Source: a virus. Taken from it: 64,000 nt of DNA. The position numbers and the translations under genes are program-made. Position 1 is the stretch's first letter. Each line of letters begins with the position of its first letter. Under the pieces are notes generated by a model that did not search any database, was not told the DNA's origin, and saw only the letters and a list, made by a program, of their open reading frames with translations. This document shows, piece after piece, positions 27,360-47,374 of the stretch. The stretch spans positions 1 to 64,000 of the IMG/VR virus record IMGVR_UViG_3300034102_001587. One strand, 5' to 3'.

Positions 27360-27767
27360 ATGTCTTGGAAATTTAATGGAAATTTGGTTACAGAAGAAAA
27401 CACCCCAGAGGGTGCGGTTGGTTTTGTCTATAAAATTATACACAAACCAACTGGTAAATTCTATATTGGTAAAAAATCACTTACATCAACCCGCCGTTTA
27501 AAACCGCTAAAAGGAAAGGTTCGTAAGAGAGTAGTTCGTAAGGCTTCTGATTGGGAAAAATACTACTCATCAAATGAATGGATTAAATCTGAAGTAAAAG
27601 AAGGTAGAGGTGGGAATTTTGAAAGAGAAATCATTCAATTCTGTTTTAGTAAAAAATCACTTACATATTGGGAAGTTTGGTGGCAGTTCAAATTAGATGT
27701 ACTGTCAGACCCACAATCAATAAATGAAAACCTTATGGGAAAATTCTTTCGTAAGGATATATATTAA
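27360..27767 (+). CDS. SegE-like GIY-YIG nuclease-family protein
   Basis: 135 residues. The GIY-YIG-like core is GFVYKIIHKPTGKFYIGKK (about residues 21-39), followed by an Arg-rich stretch, DWEKYYSS, and a candidate catalytic Glu in LTYWEVWWQFK (about 98-109) with Asn in INENL. This matches the SegE-like GIY-YIG family found in T4-like phages. Members can be free-standing homing nucleases or DNA-processing factors. It stands between structural genes and the replication genes. Activity is not certain, since the first GIY is degenerate (VYK). Confidence 0.65.
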   Translation: MSWKFNGNLVTEENTPEGAVGFVYKIIHKPTGKFYIGKKSLTSTRRLKPLKGKVRKRVVRKASDWEKYYSSNEWIKSEVKEGRGGNFEREIIQFCFSKKSLTYWEVWWQFKLDVLSDPQSINENLMGKFFRKDIY

Positions 27768-28049: not shown

Positions 28050-28985
28050 ATGCTATCGGGTAAGAACAAATTAAAAATAATCAATATATTAGACTCCGCA
28101 TTAGGAGTAGGTTCATCCTTAAAGGGAAATGAACAGGCGCATCATTGTCCTTTTTGTAATCACCACAAAAAGAAACTTCAAATAAATTTAGATACACAAA
28201 GATGGCATTGTTGGGTATGTGATTCTAAAGGTAGAAGTATATCATCACTCCTTCGTAAACTGAATGTAGACCTTAGGGATATATCGGTTGTAAAGGATGT
28301 ATATGGTGATGAACCAGAATATGATTCCAAAGAAGAATATGTAGCTAAGTTACAACTACCAAAAGAATTCAAACAATTATACTTCAAACCAAAAGGAATA
28401 AATCCAGTTTATAATCAAGCTTTACACTATTTAAATAAAAGAGGTATCACTCAAGCTGACATCGTAAAGTATAACATCGGATATTGTGAAGATGGTTTAT
28501 ATGGTGGAAGGGTTATTATACCTTCTTACGATGATAATGGTGACCTTAATTACTTTGTAGCTCGTTCTTTCTATGAAGATGAGAAAATGAAGTATAAGAA
28601 CCCACCAATTAGTAGAGATGTGATTGTATTTGATAATATGATTAATTGGGATGAGCCAATCACATTAGTTGAGGGAGTATTTGATTCTTTCTCAGTCAAA
28701 AGAAATGTAATTCCCCTATTGGGTAAATTCTTACTCAGCAAACTCAAAAATAAAATTATGGAAAAGGGTGTTAAGGATGTAACGATTATGTTAGATTCTG
28801 ATGCCGTAGATGATTCTACAAAACATACTGAATGGTTTCAAAAAAATGGAATCAAAGTAAGAAATATTATCCCAACCGATAAGGATGCTGGTGAAATGGG
28901 ATTTCAAAAAGTAAACGAAATATTAAAATCTGCCAAAGAAACTACATGGGATGATTTGGTGATGGCAAAGTTAAATAATATATGA
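28050..28985 (+). CDS. DNA primase (CHC2-type zinc finger plus TOPRIM)
   Basis: 311 residues, slightly shorter than T4 gp61 (about 340). Zinc ligands Cys33/Cys36 (HHCPFCNHH) and Cys54/Cys57 (RWHCWVCDSKG) form the template-recognition domain. The TOPRIM domain has Glu in LVEGVFDS (about residue 207) and the DxD-type IMLDSDAVD (about 246-254). It makes RNA primers for lagging-strand synthesis; a helicase gene is not in the window. First gene behind a host-type promoter, so probably early. Its stop overlaps the start of the Mre11-Rad50 gene by four bases. Confidence 0.85.
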   Translation: MLSGKNKLKIINILDSALGVGSSLKGNEQAHHCPFCNHHKKKLQINLDTQRWHCWVCDSKGRSISSLLRKLNVDLRDISVVKDVYGDEPEYDSKEEYVAKLQLPKEFKQLYFKPKGINPVYNQALHYLNKRGITQADIVKYNIGYCEDGLYGGRVIIPSYDDNGDLNYFVARSFYEDEKMKYKNPPISRDVIVFDNMINWDEPITLVEGVFDSFSVKRNVIPLLGKFLLSKLKNKIMEKGVKDVTIMLDSDAVDDSTKHTEWFQKNGIKVRNIIPTDKDAGEMGFQKVNEILKSAKETTWDDLVMAKLNNI

Positions 28986-31900
28986 GTAAATTAAAAAGGA
29001 TTTATCATATTGCGGATATTCATATTCGTAATGTAAAGAGGCATAAAGAGTTCAGACAAGTATTTGAAAAAATGTTTGAGGAAATCCGTCAAAGAGGAAC
29101 GGAAAACTCACTAATTTATTTAGCAGGTGATATTGCACATGCTAAATTGGAAATGTCACCTGAATTGGTGAAAGAGATTAGTTGGCTATTTACCGAATGT
29201 ACAAAACATTGTCCAACAATTCTTATTGCTGGTAATCACGATTGTAATATGAATAACTCTGACCGTTTGGATGTATTAACTCCAATCGTAGAGGCTTTGA
29301 ATTTAGAAAACTTTTGGTATTTAAAAGATACACAAATTTGGAAATATAGACAATGTGAATTCGCAGTGTTTAGTATTTTTGATAATAAAGATAATTGGCC
29401 ACAATCATACAGTTTAACGGCTGAAACAAAAATTGCACTATTCCACGGACCTGTGGACCATTCTGAAACTGATATAGGTTATGTAGTATCATCTCGACAT
29501 TTCACAACTGATATGTTTGATGGTTACGATTTAGCCCTTTTAGGTGACATCCACAAAAGACAAGAACTCAAATCGCCAAGAGGTTGTAGGTGTGTTTACG
29601 CAGGTTCGTTGGTGCAGCAAAACTTTGGAGAAACTTTGGACAAGCATGGTTTCTTAGTTTGGGATTTAGATACATTAACATATGAAGAAGTTGATATACA
29701 AAACGATTATGGTTATTACACCATGGATATTATCGCAGGAGTTGTTCCTGACGTTACTGATTTACCTACTCATCCTAGGCTTAGGGTAAGATTTTCTGAT
29801 ACTGATGCGGTAGATACTAAAAAAGCAATCACCGAAATTAAGGTGAAGTATGGTGTAGAAGATTTTACAACAATTAGGACTGATTCGTTGGCAAAGAAAA
29901 AGACTGGTGATAGGGATAATCAATTGGAGTTGGAAGATATTACGGATGTGACTTATCAAAACTCCTTAATTACGGATTATATACAAAGAATGATGCCATT
30001 CGCAACTGCGGATGATATAGCAGGAATACAATCGCTAAATAAGGACATCAATAATAGAATAGAGATGGATGAACTTACTAGAAACGTACAATGGAAGCCG
30101 GTAAGATTTGAATTCTCTAATATGTTCAGTTATGGTGAGGATAATGTAATCAATTTTGATAAAGTAAATGGACTGATGGGATTATTCGCACCCAATGCAA
30201 GCGGAAAATCATCTCTATTTGATGCAATCTCATTTTGCTTGTTTGACAAATGTAGCAGAGCATTTAAGGCAGCTAATATTATGAACAATAGGAAATCAGA
30301 CTTCCATTGCCAACTACATTTTCAGGTTGAAGGTATAGATTATCACATAAGGAGAGAAGCCCGAACAATTAATAAAGGAAGAAATGTTAAAGTAGATGTT
30401 CAATTCTGGAGAACCAATGGTGGGGAAAAGGAATCCCTTAATGGGACAGAGAGAAGGGATACTAACTCCGTTATAGAACAATACGTTGGAAGATATGAGG
30501 ATTTCGTAATGACTGCTCTATCACTACAAGGTAACAATGCACTATTCATTGATAAATCACAATCGGAAAGGAAAGACCTTCTTGCGCAGTTTATGGGCTT
30601 GGATATATTTGATAAGCTGTACGCAACTGCTAGTGAAGACATTAAGGAAGTGGCGGCACTAATCAGAAATTTCAAAAGGACAGATTTTACGACTGAATTA
30701 GCCCAAAAGGAAACCGACTTAACCGAAACTCAAAAAGAATTAGACAGTTTACAATCTGAATATAAACAATTAGAAAAACTTAAAGAAGAAAACCAAAACG
30801 CAATTTCTGATTTAAAGGAATCCCTAACACCAATTGATTCTAAGTTAGACCTTATACAATTGGAAAAATCTAAAAAGAAGATTGATAGTGATATTGAGAA
30901 TAATGAATCACTTATAGAAACTAAAAAGAATAATATTGAAAGTTATTTTGAAGTTCTTACCGAAGCATCGCAATCAATATCACAATACGATACAGTAAAT
31001 GGTTTACCTATTAATGAAGCTAAGAAAGAATGGGATTTGGCAAAAGGTAAATTAGCAGATGTTCAACAACAAATAGATAAGTTGGAAGGACAATACGAAT
31101 CTAATTTGGAAAAACTTAAACATTTGGAACAACATGAGTATGACCCAAATTGTAAGTTTTGCATGAATAATGTATTCGTTAAAGATGCTATCGCAACAAA
31201 AGAAATTGTTAAAACACAAGAAAGACAATTGGAAACTTTGAATATAGCACATCATGCTTTAATCAAAGCAACTGAACCATTTTCTGAAGTAGAATATGTT
31301 TGGGAAAAATTAGTTGAACTACGAAACAAATATCAAAAGGGCGAAATCCTTAAACAAAAAGGAGAAGCCGAATTGAGTGGATTGAAAACCGCTCATCAAC
31401 TTTTAGAAAATCAATTAGATGGAGTTAAAACTGATATAGAACGATACCATGCAAACGAAGCAACAATTCGTAAGAACAATGAATTGAATGAAGAAATTAA
31501 AGGATTGGAAATTCGTAAGAAAAACATAGATAAGGAACTTTCAGATATTAATAGACAGATTCTTCAAAAAACTGGCGCAATTGGTTCTATACAATCATTT
31601 ATAGACTCCACTAAAGCTAAGATGGATGAAGTAAAACAATTGGAAAATAAGAATACTCTTTACACTTACTATTTAGATGCTGTTAAGAAAGATGGTGTAC
31701 CATATGAACTTATTTCCAAAGCAATGCCTGTAATTGAATCCGAAGTGAATAACATATTAGCACAGGTTGTTGATTTCTCACTTTCAATGGATACTGATGG
31801 TAAGAACATTAACGCTAAAATCGTTTACGAAGACCAGGAGTGGGCTCTGGAGATGTGTAGTGGTATGGAGAAGTTCATATCGGGATTAGCGATTAGAGTG

Positions 31901-32128
31901 GCTCTAATTAACATATGCGGCCTTCCTAGACCTAACTTCTTAGTTATTGATGAAGGGTTTGGAACTTTGGATGCGGATAACCTATCTTCACTCTTTATGA
32001 TGATGCAATATCTGAAAACCCAATTCGATTTTATTTGGATGATTTCTCACTTAGAACAAATGAGAGATATTGTTGATGGACTAATTGAAATTAAGAAAGA
32101 TAATGGGTTCTCTAAGATTAACTTTTAG
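28982..32128 (+). CDS. Single-chain Mre11-Rad50 (gp47-gp46/SbcD-SbcC) fusion nuclease-ATPase
   Basis: 1048 residues. Residues 1-~340 are an Mre11/SbcD/gp47-type metallophosphoesterase: Asp12/His14 (IADIHIR), Asp50 (LAGDIAHAK), GNHD at 84-87, FHGPVDH and LGDIHKRQ near 158-198. The Rad50/SbcC/gp46 part begins near 370, with Walker A APNASGKSS (403-411), a long coiled coil with zinc hook C724-x-x-C727 (PNCKFCMNN), signature CSGMEKFISGLAIRVAL (about 958) and Walker B LVIDEGFGTLDADN (about 986-1000). T4 encodes two genes; here one unbroken frame covers both. The first Walker A glycine is alanine, which is unusual. The role is DNA-end resection for recombination-dependent replication. Confidence 0.9.
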   Translation: MSKLKRIYHIADIHIRNVKRHKEFRQVFEKMFEEIRQRGTENSLIYLAGDIAHAKLEMSPELVKEISWLFTECTKHCPTILIAGNHDCNMNNSDRLDVLTPIVEALNLENFWYLKDTQIWKYRQCEFAVFSIFDNKDNWPQSYSLTAETKIALFHGPVDHSETDIGYVVSSRHFTTDMFDGYDLALLGDIHKRQELKSPRGCRCVYAGSLVQQNFGETLDKHGFLVWDLDTLTYEEVDIQNDYGYYTMDIIAGVVPDVTDLPTHPRLRVRFSDTDAVDTKKAITEIKVKYGVEDFTTIRTDSLAKKKTGDRDNQLELEDITDVTYQNSLITDYIQRMMPFATADDIAGIQSLNKDINNRIEMDELTRNVQWKPVRFEFSNMFSYGEDNVINFDKVNGLMGLFAPNASGKSSLFDAISFCLFDKCSRAFKAANIMNNRKSDFHCQLHFQVEGIDYHIRREARTINKGRNVKVDVQFWRTNGGEKESLNGTERRDTNSVIEQYVGRYEDFVMTALSLQGNNALFIDKSQSERKDLLAQFMGLDIFDKLYATASEDIKEVAALIRNFKRTDFTTELAQKETDLTETQKELDSLQSEYKQLEKLKEENQNAISDLKESLTPIDSKLDLIQLEKSKKKIDSDIENNESLIETKKNNIESYFEVLTEASQSISQYDTVNGLPINEAKKEWDLAKGKLADVQQQIDKLEGQYESNLEKLKHLEQHEYDPNCKFCMNNVFVKDAIATKEIVKTQERQLETLNIAHHALIKATEPFSEVEYVWEKLVELRNKYQKGEILKQKGEAELSGLKTAHQLLENQLDGVKTDIERYHANEATIRKNNELNEEIKGLEIRKKNIDKELSDINRQILQKTGAIGSIQSFIDSTKAKMDEVKQLENKNTLYTYYLDAVKKDGVPYELISKAMPVIESEVNNILAQVVDFSLSMDTDGKNINAKIVYEDQEWALEMCSGMEKFISGLAIRVALINICGLPRPNFLVIDEGFGTLDADNLSSLFMMMQYLKTQFDFIWMISHLEQMRDIVDGLIEIKKDNGFSKINF

Positions 32129-40828: not shown

Positions 40829-43009
40829 ATGAAAAATAGAAAAAAGTTACTTTATGTATGTCCACACCTTTCAACAGGCGGACAACCACAATATACATAT
40901 AAGCAAGTAAAGCATTTTTTAAATGATTTTAATATTGAAGTTGTTGAAATAAACAATAGTGGTGGTGATGCGTTTGTAGTTCAAAAAAATAGAATTAAAT
41001 CTTTAGCTATTGTACATACTTTAGGTGAGGATAAATCTAAAATACTTGATATAATTAAAGACTACAAACCTGATATAATTCATTTTCAAGAAATCCCACA
41101 ATTTGATTTATCAAATGAAATATTAGATAAAATATTTGATAACAAAAGAAAATATTTTATCGTAGCAACAACACATGGTTCATTTACAAATCCATTAGAT
41201 ATTACACATCATCCAGATAGATATGTTTTGGTATCTGAGTGGAGTAAACAAAAATTTGATGATGCTAATTTAGGAGTTGAAACTCAACTTTGGGAATATC
41301 CCATTGAAGAATATAATTTTGATAAAGAAGAAGCGCAAAAAAAATTAGGATTTGACCCAACTTGGAAGCATATTTTAAATGTTGGATTATTTTCACCGGG
41401 CAAAAATCAAAAAGAAATATTTTCAGTAGCAAGGCAATTGGAAAAATATAAAATTAAATTTCATTTTGTTGGAAACCAAGCTATGAACTTTGAAAATTAC
41501 TGGTTGCCACTAATGAAACATAAACCTGATAATTGTGTTATATGGGGAGAGCGAAATGATGTTGATACATTTTATGCAGCATCTGATTTGTTTTATTTTT
41601 CATCAATATTAGAGTTAAATCCATTATCGGTAAAGGAAGCTCTTTCTTACAAGCTCCCATGCTTATTTAGAAGATTGCATACTTTTTTGGATACATATGA
41701 TAACAATAATTTAGTAACATATATTGATGATGATACTAAAAAAACAAAACAATTATTACTTCAAAAATTAAAACCTGAATTTTACGAAATACCTGGTTGG
41801 TTTTCATATGAAAATTTATATGATAGAATGGTAGAAACTGCACCTTTTAATTCTACATTTGTTGAGGTTGGTTCTTGGTTTGGAAAATCTACAAATTATT
41901 TAGCAAAAAAAATTAGAGATTCTAAAAAGAATATTTCATTTACAACAATAGATACATTTAAAGGAACTGGAGATGAAGAATTACACATAGATATTGTAGG
42001 GTCTTTCAATGGAGATATATTTTATGAATTCGTTGATAACACAGTTATTTCAAATAATTATGAAGCGTTTAATACTATAAAAGATACATCAGAAAATGCT
42101 TCTAAACTATTTCAAAATAATTCTATTGATTATATAATGATTGATGGTGGGCATAGTAGAGATTTTGTATTAGGTGAGTTAGATAGATGGTATCATAAAG
42201 TAAAACCTGGTGGAATTATTAGTGGAGATGATTTTGGAGTTTTTAGTGGAGTAACAGATGCAGCTAATCACTTTTTTTATGGACAGATTCAAAAAGATTT
42301 TTTATCTTTTGTTCGTAAAAAACCACGTATTCAAATAAAACATATGTTGACAAGACCGGATGATATGCGTGAAAGAGTATCTATTCAATCTTTAAAACAA
42401 TTACGTCAATATGGAATTGATTATCAACCAATTGTTAATAAGGTTTATGAAGGGTTACCGCCGGCAGAACATTGTAGAAGACCTGAGCATTTAAGTAAAG
42501 ATAATAAACCTGGTGAATTATATCCTGGTGCTGGTTTGGGTTGGATAACTGGTAGACATTATGGTTGTTATTTAGCACATAGAAACGCTATAGAAACAAT
42601 AGATGATACGAATTACGATTATACTTTAATATTTGAAGCCGATGCATTTATTTACACAGGGTTAGAAGAATTTGTAAACATAGTTCATAAAGCCTGTTTT
42701 ATTTCAGAAAGAGATGATGTATATTTTATAGGATTGGCAGATAACCCATCACGAGAAAAATATAGAATTGATGATTTGTTTACAAAAACAGGACACAATC
42801 AAGACCTTGCACACGCTTATTTAATTCCAAATAGAAACAAAAGCTGGTGGATGGATAGAATAAAAGATTGTGAATGGGATGTGGGCGACCTTTGGTTTAA
42901 TCATATATTTTATCACCATCCAAAACCTAGATATACTACTAATAAAATGTACTCCAAACAAGCAGAAGGATATTCTTTATTGGATGAAACTATAAAAACT
43001 TGGGATTAA
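40829..43009 (+). CDS. Trifunctional GT4-like / methyltransferase / GT25-like glycan enzyme
   Basis: 726 residues. Residues 1-~325 resemble a GT4/GT-B glycosyltransferase: LYVCPHLSTGGQPQYTYK at the start, ILNVGLFSPGKNQKE (about 184), and SSILELNPLSVKEALSYKLP (about 258). Residues ~330-480 form a class I SAM-dependent methyltransferase (STFVEVGSWFGKSTNYLAKK, then DYIMIDGGHSRDFVLGELDR and PGGIISGDDFG). Residues ~500-726 resemble a GT25-type transferase (GWITGRHYGCYLAHRNAIE, YTLIFEADAFIYTGLEEF, with EAD where EDD is usual). All in one frame, driven by a host-type promoter. It probably builds and methylates a sugar decoration of virion proteins; acceptor and sugars are unknown. Confidence 0.75.
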   Translation: MKNRKKLLYVCPHLSTGGQPQYTYKQVKHFLNDFNIEVVEINNSGGDAFVVQKNRIKSLAIVHTLGEDKSKILDIIKDYKPDIIHFQEIPQFDLSNEILDKIFDNKRKYFIVATTHGSFTNPLDITHHPDRYVLVSEWSKQKFDDANLGVETQLWEYPIEEYNFDKEEAQKKLGFDPTWKHILNVGLFSPGKNQKEIFSVARQLEKYKIKFHFVGNQAMNFENYWLPLMKHKPDNCVIWGERNDVDTFYAASDLFYFSSILELNPLSVKEALSYKLPCLFRRLHTFLDTYDNNNLVTYIDDDTKKTKQLLLQKLKPEFYEIPGWFSYENLYDRMVETAPFNSTFVEVGSWFGKSTNYLAKKIRDSKKNISFTTIDTFKGTGDEELHIDIVGSFNGDIFYEFVDNTVISNNYEAFNTIKDTSENASKLFQNNSIDYIMIDGGHSRDFVLGELDRWYHKVKPGGIISGDDFGVFSGVTDAANHFFYGQIQKDFLSFVRKKPRIQIKHMLTRPDDMRERVSIQSLKQLRQYGIDYQPIVNKVYEGLPPAEHCRRPEHLSKDNKPGELYPGAGLGWITGRHYGCYLAHRNAIETIDDTNYDYTLIFEADAFIYTGLEEFVNIVHKACFISERDDVYFIGLADNPSREKYRIDDLFTKTGHNQDLAHAYLIPNRNKSWWMDRIKDCEWDVGDLWFNHIFYHHPKPRYTTNKMYSKQAEGYSLLDETIKTWD

Positions 43010-45025: not shown

Positions 45026-47374
45026 ATGAACAGATTAGCACAATTTTTAATAGAAAGCATATTAGGTGAAGCGGCTCAGATAGACAAAACAATAGTTGTC
45101 TATTCGGGCCGCTTTCAACCTTTTCATAAGGGTCACTACGCAACGTATGACCATTTGGTTAAGAAGTTTGGAAGGGATAATGTTTATGTAGGAACTTCCG
45201 ATGTAACCGATTCAAAGAAATCTCCATTCGGGTTTAAGGAAAAGAAAGTAATAATGACAAAGATGTTTGGTATTCCATCAAACAAAATAGTCAGTATTAA
45301 AAACCCATACGCTCCACAAGAAATACTCAATAAATTTGATTCAGATACTACTGCATTTATAACAGCAGTTGGTGAAAAAGATTCTTCACGTCTAAGTGGT
45401 AAATACTTCAAACCATATAAAGGTAAAGTAGATACTGGATATTTGGATAGGGGGTACGTTTATATAGCACCTGCTCAATCAAATCCTATAAGTGGAACTG
45501 ATGTTCGTTATTGGTTAAGTGCTGGTAGTGAAGCGGATAGAAAGAAAGGTTTTATGAAAGCATATCCAAAGTTTGATGAGCAAATATTCAAAATGATTAC
45601 TCTCAAACTTAAATCTCTTAAAGAATATATTAACGAAGAAATTAAATTAAATGTTAAGATTGGTGACCAAATCTTAATGGGTAAATTTAAAAACAAAAAA
45701 GTTTTTGTTAAATCTATCGGAAAAGATGAATGGGGAATGCCAACAATCAATGGTAAGAAAGCCGTAACATTTAGAATTCCTAAGAAAGATATTAAAGAAG
45801 GACTAGGTGGTGGTGCTGGTGTTGGATTATCTTTGACTGGTGGATATATTAATGGAGCACCAAATCCAAAAGATGTTAAGAAATTAAAATCTAAATTGGA
45901 TAAAGATGGTAGTGAGGAATACACTAAAGTAAAAGAAGATAAAATACCAGGTGGAAAAGCCGAAGGTATGACACTATCGGATATAGCTAAACACCATAAA
46001 GTTAGTCAGCAGACTTTAAAGAACGAATTTATAAAAGGATATGCAGTAGAAAGAGAGCATACAACCGATGTAAATGTTGCAAAAGAAATAGCATTAGACC
46101 ATTTATACGAAGACCCAAATTATTATAGTAAATTATCAAAGATTGAAACCCCACTAAGTGAAGGTTTACTTTTAGAAGGTGGAGCATATGGACATATGAA
46201 TCACCCATTTGACATTCAGATGAATCTTACATTTGGTGACCTTAAAAATATTGTAACTAAAGCTCTTAATGGTGATTTGGAATTAGCAAGAGAAAAAACT
46301 GATGGACAGGCATTGGCAATTAGTTGGGTAAATGGTAGATTGGTTGCCGCAAGAAATAAATCTCATACAAAAAATAAAGGTGAAGGTGCAATGACTATAG
46401 GGCAGGTTGCAAAACAATTTGCTGGTAGAGGTGCTCTTACAGATGCTTATACATTTGCTATGAATGACCTTTCAAAAGCAATAGCAGGATTAACTGAACC
46501 ACAACGTAAGAAGATATTTAAAGATGGTGCATGTTTTATGAATTTGGAAGTAATATATCCAAAGAATTCAAACGTAATACCATATGGACAAAACATTTTA
46601 GTATTTCACGGAACTTTTGAATATAATAAAGAAGGTGAAGTAATCGGAGAGAACCAACAGGCGGCATCTATCTTAGCTGGTATGATTAAGCAAGTTAATA
46701 AGCATGTACAAAATACATACACAATTCAGGGACCCCCAATACAATCATTACCAAAATCTCAAGAACTTTCTAAATTACAAGGAAAGTATATATCAATGGT
46801 TAATAAATTGCAAAACGAATTTAAACTTTCTGATTCAGCTGGAGTAGCAGATTACCATCAGGCTTGGTGGCAAAATTATGTTGAAAAGAATGCAAAAAAA
46901 TTAGACATAAATTCAAAAATAGGGTTGGTTAAAAGATGGGCTTTTGGTGATAAATCAATGCGTATAAATCAAATACAAGACCAGAAGATAAAAGCATGGG
47001 CGGATAAAACTGATAAGCAAGACCAGCAAAAGATTATGAAAGAAAACATAATGAAGTTTGAACAAATCTTTTTAGGTGTTGGTGCTGATGTATTATCATT
47101 TATGGAATCTGTACTTACCGCCAATCCTTCGGATGCAACCAAACAATTAAGAAAAGAATTGGGAACTGCAATTAAGCAAATAAAAGCTTCTGGAAATCCA
47201 CAACAAATTGATAAATTAAAAATTGAATTAAGCCGCTTAAATTCTTTAGGTGGATTTGATAAAATTGTTCCAAATGAGGGTATTGTTTTCGTTTATGGGG
47301 GAAATACCTATAAATTGACTGGAGCATTTGCACCATTAAATCAAATATTGGGTATCTTTAAGTACGGAAGATAA
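45026..47374 (+). CDS. Multidomain protein: NMNAT-like nucleotidyltransferase, DUF5661-like and ligase-like KxDG domain
   Basis: 782 residues. It begins MNRLAQFLIESILGE, a candidate capsid-targeting signal with LIE and LGE cleavage triplets. Residues ~22-190 are an NMN-adenylyltransferase-like domain (GRFQPFHKGH at 28-37, NPISGTDVRYW near 157). About 325-375 has VEREHTTDVNVAKEIALDHL then YEDPNYYSKL, like DUF5661. From ~395, LAREKTDGQALAISW (about 418-432) has the KxDG nucleotidyl-lysine motif of ATP-dependent ligases and capping enzymes, with FMNLEVIYP, VFHG and a C-terminal EGIVFVYGG...YKLTG as motifs III-V. It may act on NAD, RNA or nucleotides in early infection if packaged. Substrate unproven. 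Confidence 0.65.
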   Translation: MNRLAQFLIESILGEAAQIDKTIVVYSGRFQPFHKGHYATYDHLVKKFGRDNVYVGTSDVTDSKKSPFGFKEKKVIMTKMFGIPSNKIVSIKNPYAPQEILNKFDSDTTAFITAVGEKDSSRLSGKYFKPYKGKVDTGYLDRGYVYIAPAQSNPISGTDVRYWLSAGSEADRKKGFMKAYPKFDEQIFKMITLKLKSLKEYINEEIKLNVKIGDQILMGKFKNKKVFVKSIGKDEWGMPTINGKKAVTFRIPKKDIKEGLGGGAGVGLSLTGGYINGAPNPKDVKKLKSKLDKDGSEEYTKVKEDKIPGGKAEGMTLSDIAKHHKVSQQTLKNEFIKGYAVEREHTTDVNVAKEIALDHLYEDPNYYSKLSKIETPLSEGLLLEGGAYGHMNHPFDIQMNLTFGDLKNIVTKALNGDLELAREKTDGQALAISWVNGRLVAARNKSHTKNKGEGAMTIGQVAKQFAGRGALTDAYTFAMNDLSKAIAGLTEPQRKKIFKDGACFMNLEVIYPKNSNVIPYGQNILVFHGTFEYNKEGEVIGENQQAASILAGMIKQVNKHVQNTYTIQGPPIQSLPKSQELSKLQGKYISMVNKLQNEFKLSDSAGVADYHQAWWQNYVEKNAKKLDINSKIGLVKRWAFGDKSMRINQIQDQKIKAWADKTDKQDQQKIMKENIMKFEQIFLGVGADVLSFMESVLTANPSDATKQLRKELGTAIKQIKASGNPQQIDKLKIELSRLNSLGGFDKIVPNEGIVFVYGGNTYKLTGAFAPLNQILGIFKYGR

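Follow-up and report, generated by a model that had tools for sequence, protein, structure and literature searches.

The locus analyzed here raises the question of whether one viral gene codes for both Mre11 and Rad50 and, if so, whether the join between them is genuine, how unusual it is, and what the joined protein may do. The window (the whole stretch of DNA that was analyzed, 64,000 nucleotides) is part of a 136,291-base virus record, IMGVR_UViG_3300034102_001587, which is probably a fragment. It contains an uninterrupted ATG frame of 1048 amino acids (aa) with zero internal stops, along which both families could be identified: with Pfam, Metallophos (PF00149) at residues 6-192 (E 3.4e-11) and AAA_23 at residues 379-611 (E 2.8e-16), and with PHROG, family 100 (SbcD-like) over residues 5-335 (E 1.4e-29) and family 77 (SbcC-like) over residues 311-1047 (E 1.8e-62). 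Solved Rad50, SbcC, and Mre11 chains were also matched by sequence, each to the corresponding half. The original prediction of Mre11 and Rad50 in one unbroken frame is thus borne out and, with both domains matched in that frame, the gene can be identified as a natural Mre11-Rad50 fusion. Its parts are the following.

28982..32128, plus strand: fused Mre11-Rad50 (SbcD-SbcC) gene, 1048 aa, a single frame with Pfam and PHROG matches on both halves
28982..29701, plus strand: Mre11 phosphoesterase core, residues ~1-240 (Metallophos PF00149, conserved ligands)
29543..29554, plus strand: metal motif G188-D189-I190-H191, GHxH changed to GDxH (Asp in 122/122 aligned sequences; same change reported for Mimivirus R555)
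29948..30058, plus strand: helix-loop-helix, residues 323-359, likely the Rad50-binding module of Mre11 (model helices 323-337 and 343-359)
30059..30088, plus strand: linker, residues 360-369 (from the model; 10 residues in 115/122)
30089..30601, plus strand: Rad50 N-lobe, residues 370-540 (AAA_23 at 379-611, SbcC head structural match)
30188..30211, plus strand: Walker A APNASGKS, residues 403-410 (G408 and K409 invariant, n = 122)
30602..31129, plus strand: coiled-coil arm 1, residues 541-716 (from the model)
31151..31162, plus strand: zinc hook C724-K-F-C727 (C724 in 113/122, C727 in 122/122)
31172..31684, plus strand: coiled-coil arm 2, residues 731-901 (from the model)
31697..32125, plus strand: Rad50 C-lobe, residues 906-1048, with the signature CSGMEKF at 959-965, Walker B at 986-991, and H1023 (from the alignment and the model)

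The motifs first read from the sequence are all in place (D12/H14, D50, G84-N-H-D87, C724/C727, the signature at 959-965, and Walker B at 986-991). In the Mre11 half, the metal motifs DxH, GD, GNHD/E, and H are present, and D12, H14, D50, N85, H86, H155, and H191 are conserved in the alignment (n = 122), while GHxH is replaced by GDxH in all 122 aligned sequences, a detail that the first reading had overlooked. The Rad50 half shows what is expected of a Rad50/SbcC protein, with Walker A, an ABC signature, Walker B, and a CxxC hook between coiled coils; the signature reads CSGME instead of LSGGE. The alanine that had been noted in place of the first Walker A glycine is indeed there (A403), but as a peculiarity it was ruled out, being the norm in the family (A in 104/122, G in 18/122). 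The general P-loop pattern (PROSITE PS00017) permits either A or G at this position.

We modeled the fusion as a monomer with AlphaFold2 from 33 aligned sequences (mean pLDDT 81, whole-model pTM only 0.47). The N-terminal part of the model consists of a phosphoesterase core, a capping-like part reaching to about residue 300, and a low-confidence stretch at 301-316, after which come two helices (323-337 and 343-359), the linker (360-369), and the Rad50 N-lobe from residue 370. Farther along come two coiled-coil arms (541-716; 731-901) that flank the CxxC hook, and the C-lobe starts at 906. The linker had been proposed to lie at about 340-370, which the model does not support, as residues 343-359 form the second helix of the likely Rad50-binding module and only about 360-369 would be true linker. 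The Rad50 head of the model aligned with E. coli SbcC (Z 32.8, 348 residues, rmsd 3.1), and T. maritima Mre11 was found among its Foldseek matches (E 9.6e-11). Since the structural comparison with VIA-align spanned mainly residues 370-1048, the Mre11 half rests on the sequence profiles together with one Foldseek match. Against a library of structures predicted for viruses, long giant-virus proteins matched best (e.g., from Tupanvirus, Harvfovirus, and Catovirus), and those of Tenacibaculum phages came next.

A scan of viral contigs recovered 431 relatives. The best 80 of the 431 (66-85% identical) are all single frames across the Mre11-Rad50 join, 3 being truncated solely where their contigs end, and the distance from the last Mre11 helix to the first Rad50 strand hardly varies (10 residues in 115 of the 122 aligned sequences, 11 in 6, and 9 in 1). 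A sequencing or assembly artefact, in which loss of a stop codon or an indel would make two ordinary neighboring genes look like one, has a precedent in Listeria phage LMTA-57, where the region is one base shorter than in the sister phages, mostly annotated as two genes. For the window, such a merger is extremely improbable, as it is opposed by the single frame in all 80 best independent contigs, by a linker of 9-11 residues in every aligned sequence, and by separate isolated phages that carry the fusion as one CDS. Because the frame runs on through the join in those 80 relatives, all from other viral contigs, sequence comparison indicates that the join in the window is genuine and not a sequencing artefact. 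The LMTA-57 gene itself (L006:2417-5446), annotated as a single recombination exonuclease, was set aside as a further fusion for its missing base; it is probably the product of an indel or a sequencing error and no true fusion.

The fusion had been presented as unusual, a claim that does not stand, as such proteins have been documented since 2011 (PMC3175470) and several isolated phages have one annotated CDS. Yoshida, Claverie and Ogata (2011) described thirteen Mre11/Rad50 fusions, including those of Mimivirus (R555), a Bacillus phage, plasmids, and eukaryotes, and reported many homologues of R555 in the viral fractions of aquatic metagenomes, some of them near phage primases (PMC3175470). 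They also described the His-to-Asp change in the metal motif of R555 and a linker length compatible with a connection in cis, for which they estimated 9-12 residues (PMC3175470). The window protein fits their description: the Mre11/SbcD domain precedes the Rad50/SbcC domain, the order by which Yoshida et al. (2011) recognize a fusion, and the chain has a region for the capping domain, the helix-loop-helix at 323-359, and a linker within the estimated range (n = 122). It is one more example of a documented type, and aquatic phages and giant viruses commonly carry the Mre11-Rad50 fusion.

R555 and its metagenomic homologues resemble the window fusion in having an N-terminal Mre11 and a C-terminal Rad50 in one chain and Asp in the metal motif, although R555 is longer (1351 aa versus 1048 aa). 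Giant-virus homologues, the full-length proteins that headed the viral structure matches, are ~17-24% identical to the window fusion in structural alignments (R555 itself is not among them). Much closer is the protein of Microcystis phage Mel-JY01 (WWT39521.1), 40% identical over its full length and encoded by one CDS that is preceded, as in the window, by GIY-YIG and primase genes; it differs in a small extra ORF between primase and fusion and is annotated merely as an AAA domain protein. Both domains are likewise found in one CDS in Tenacibaculum phages PTm1 and pT24, Sphingomonas phage PAU, Chryseobacterium phage MA9V-1, Rhizobium phage RHph_Y65, and Xanthomonas phage XacN1. No close relative was confirmed in bacterial genome contigs, and the plasmids gave only weak matches, with no clear fusion among the matches listed. 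T4 gp47 and gp46 have both enzyme halves in the same gene order, but as two chains (gp47 of 339 aa, gp46 of 560 aa) whose genes are separated by 46.1 and 46.2. Nor is the 1:1 stoichiometry credited to the fusion a novelty, as the two-chain Mre11-Rad50 complex is M2R2 and hence already 1:1 without fusion. With the fusion known since 2011 and common, its value is practical and evolutionary: a naturally joined Mre11-Rad50 from a large family of compact proteins (~1050 aa) is a handy single-chain object for structural and single-molecule work.

The metal motif bears on whether the Mre11 half cuts DNA. The exchanged position, D189, corresponds to the first His of GHxH, a metal ligand, and Asp is able to bind Mn or Mg. 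The strict conservation of this Asp suggests a metal site that still functions, possibly in altered form, and the change from GHxH to GDxH could alter the nuclease. An unlikely extension of this idea is that the protein serves as a DNA tether or clamp of the Rad50 type, with an Mre11 half that does not cut, or cuts differently, since its metal ligand changed from His to Asp. The fixation of D189 and the SGME-type signature common in the clade of the window would be in line with a tether, as would the finding that most cellular organisms with a fusion also keep a normal two-chain copy, so that its role there may differ (PMC3175470). However, all other metal ligands are kept, the same GDxH is common to separately encoded phage proteins (T5-like, Vibrio D252), and strict conservation argues for catalysis.

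Regarding the origin of the fusion, we built a quick tree of 24 fused and 12 split proteins, with several long branches. A supported branch (SH-aLRT 99) sets 22 fused proteins, including that of the window, apart from the rest, so most of the fused proteins sampled belong to one large clade. The fused protein of XacN1 groups with split genes of the RaK2/121Q type, and that of RHph_Y65 falls outside the clade of the window on a very long branch, its position unsure. The joins in XacN1 and RHph_Y65 therefore look separate from that of the window's clade, and phages would need at least two changes between the split and fused states, a lower bound that holds under this quick tree only.

Some relatives appear in two pieces again. 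In four loci (L116:2483-5723, on the same contig as L135; L136:1822-5074; L137:1822-5074; L141:1796-5077), the fused gene is broken inside Mre11, just past the GDIHK motif and away from the old Mre11-Rad50 join. What remains is an N-chain, its frame 224-228 aa long, which carries a short conserved acidic tail, and a neighboring C-chain of ~860 aa with the rest of Mre11 and Rad50; in the close kin of these contigs, L138-L140, the gene is unbroken. At the same Mre11 break point, a 484-kb phage (LR756508.1) has a 305-aa ORF (L003:3174-4088) with start and stop overlaps, CxxC pairs, and a match to a TnsA-like nuclease (PF08722, E 5.8e-6), and Rfam detected no intron in this interrupted relative. 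The inserted ORF is a putative homing endonuclease that may have split the gene. The arrangement recalls phage Aeh1, in which nrdA is split by mobE, and T4, in which gene 60 is split by mobA (PMC2988022). We tentatively propose, at somewhat less than even likelihood, that the clade of the window is an old, separate Mre11-Rad50 lineage with a catalytic signature of its own (GDxH, SGME-type), shared with the giant-virus R555 proteins, and that in some of its members a homing endonuclease broke the gene once more, within Mre11, which gave rise to a new enzyme of two chains. If true, the lineage would record the fusion and then a different fission of one machine. Elsewhere, the XacN1-like fusion of Stenotrophomonas phage RAS14 (L131:944-4307) is continuous at the join and has its frame broken inside Mre11 near HYIGNTFP, and CM1 was likewise matched in two pieces.

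The genes upstream of the fusion in the window include the following.

28050..28985, plus strand: DnaG-type primase gene, its stop overlapping the fusion start (ATGA) (PHROG 47 primase, E 7.7e-49)
27360-27767: SegE-like GIY-YIG endonuclease gene, two genes upstream of the primase-fusion pair (PF19835, E 5.9e-26)

A primase-like ORF is present at 120 related loci, in many of them directly upstream of the fusion, and the 136 kb record carries a RecA match at its very end. These surroundings would fit recombination-dependent replication. We consider it very probable that the gene, from a tailed phage, codes for a single-chain Mre11-Rad50 (SbcD-SbcC, T4 gp47-gp46) complex, which would pair with a second copy into M2R2 for ATP-gated DNA-end processing. 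Counting for the single-chain complex are the match of both families over nearly the whole chain, the conserved motifs, the fused frame of the 80 best relatives, and the structural matches to SbcC (head) and T. maritima Mre11; the helix-loop-helix and 10-residue linker, which fit the cis estimate of Yoshida et al.; and the primase overlap together with RecA in the record. Counting against it are the low pTM of the whole model and the GDxH change with its possible effect on the nuclease; moreover, none of PF00476 and PF00136 (DNA polymerase A/B) or PF03796 (DnaB-type helicase) was detected in the 136 kb record, itself a fragment.

From these data we infer how the single-chain complex may work. 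Two fused chains would build the standard M2R2 assembly, in which ATP bound by way of Walker A, the signature, and Walker B would bring the Rad50 heads together as a dimer and the CxxC zinc hook would link the coiled coils. Each Mre11 half would dock its helix-loop-helix on the coiled-coil root and be held to the Rad50 heads in cis, the linker leading the chain into the N-lobe. ATP hydrolysis would then gate the access of the nuclease to DNA ends. Its likely role would be DNA-end processing for recombination-dependent replication and repair, with host DNA breakdown, as for T4 gp46/47, as a possible additional one.

Downstream of the fusion, the window codes for a tail-fiber-like protein of 2704 aa. 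Farther on, two long proteins (40829-43009 and 45026-47374) are only partly covered by PHROG matches of the transferase type (glycosyltransferase and DNA methyltransferase; cytidyltransferase), the remainder being unmatched.
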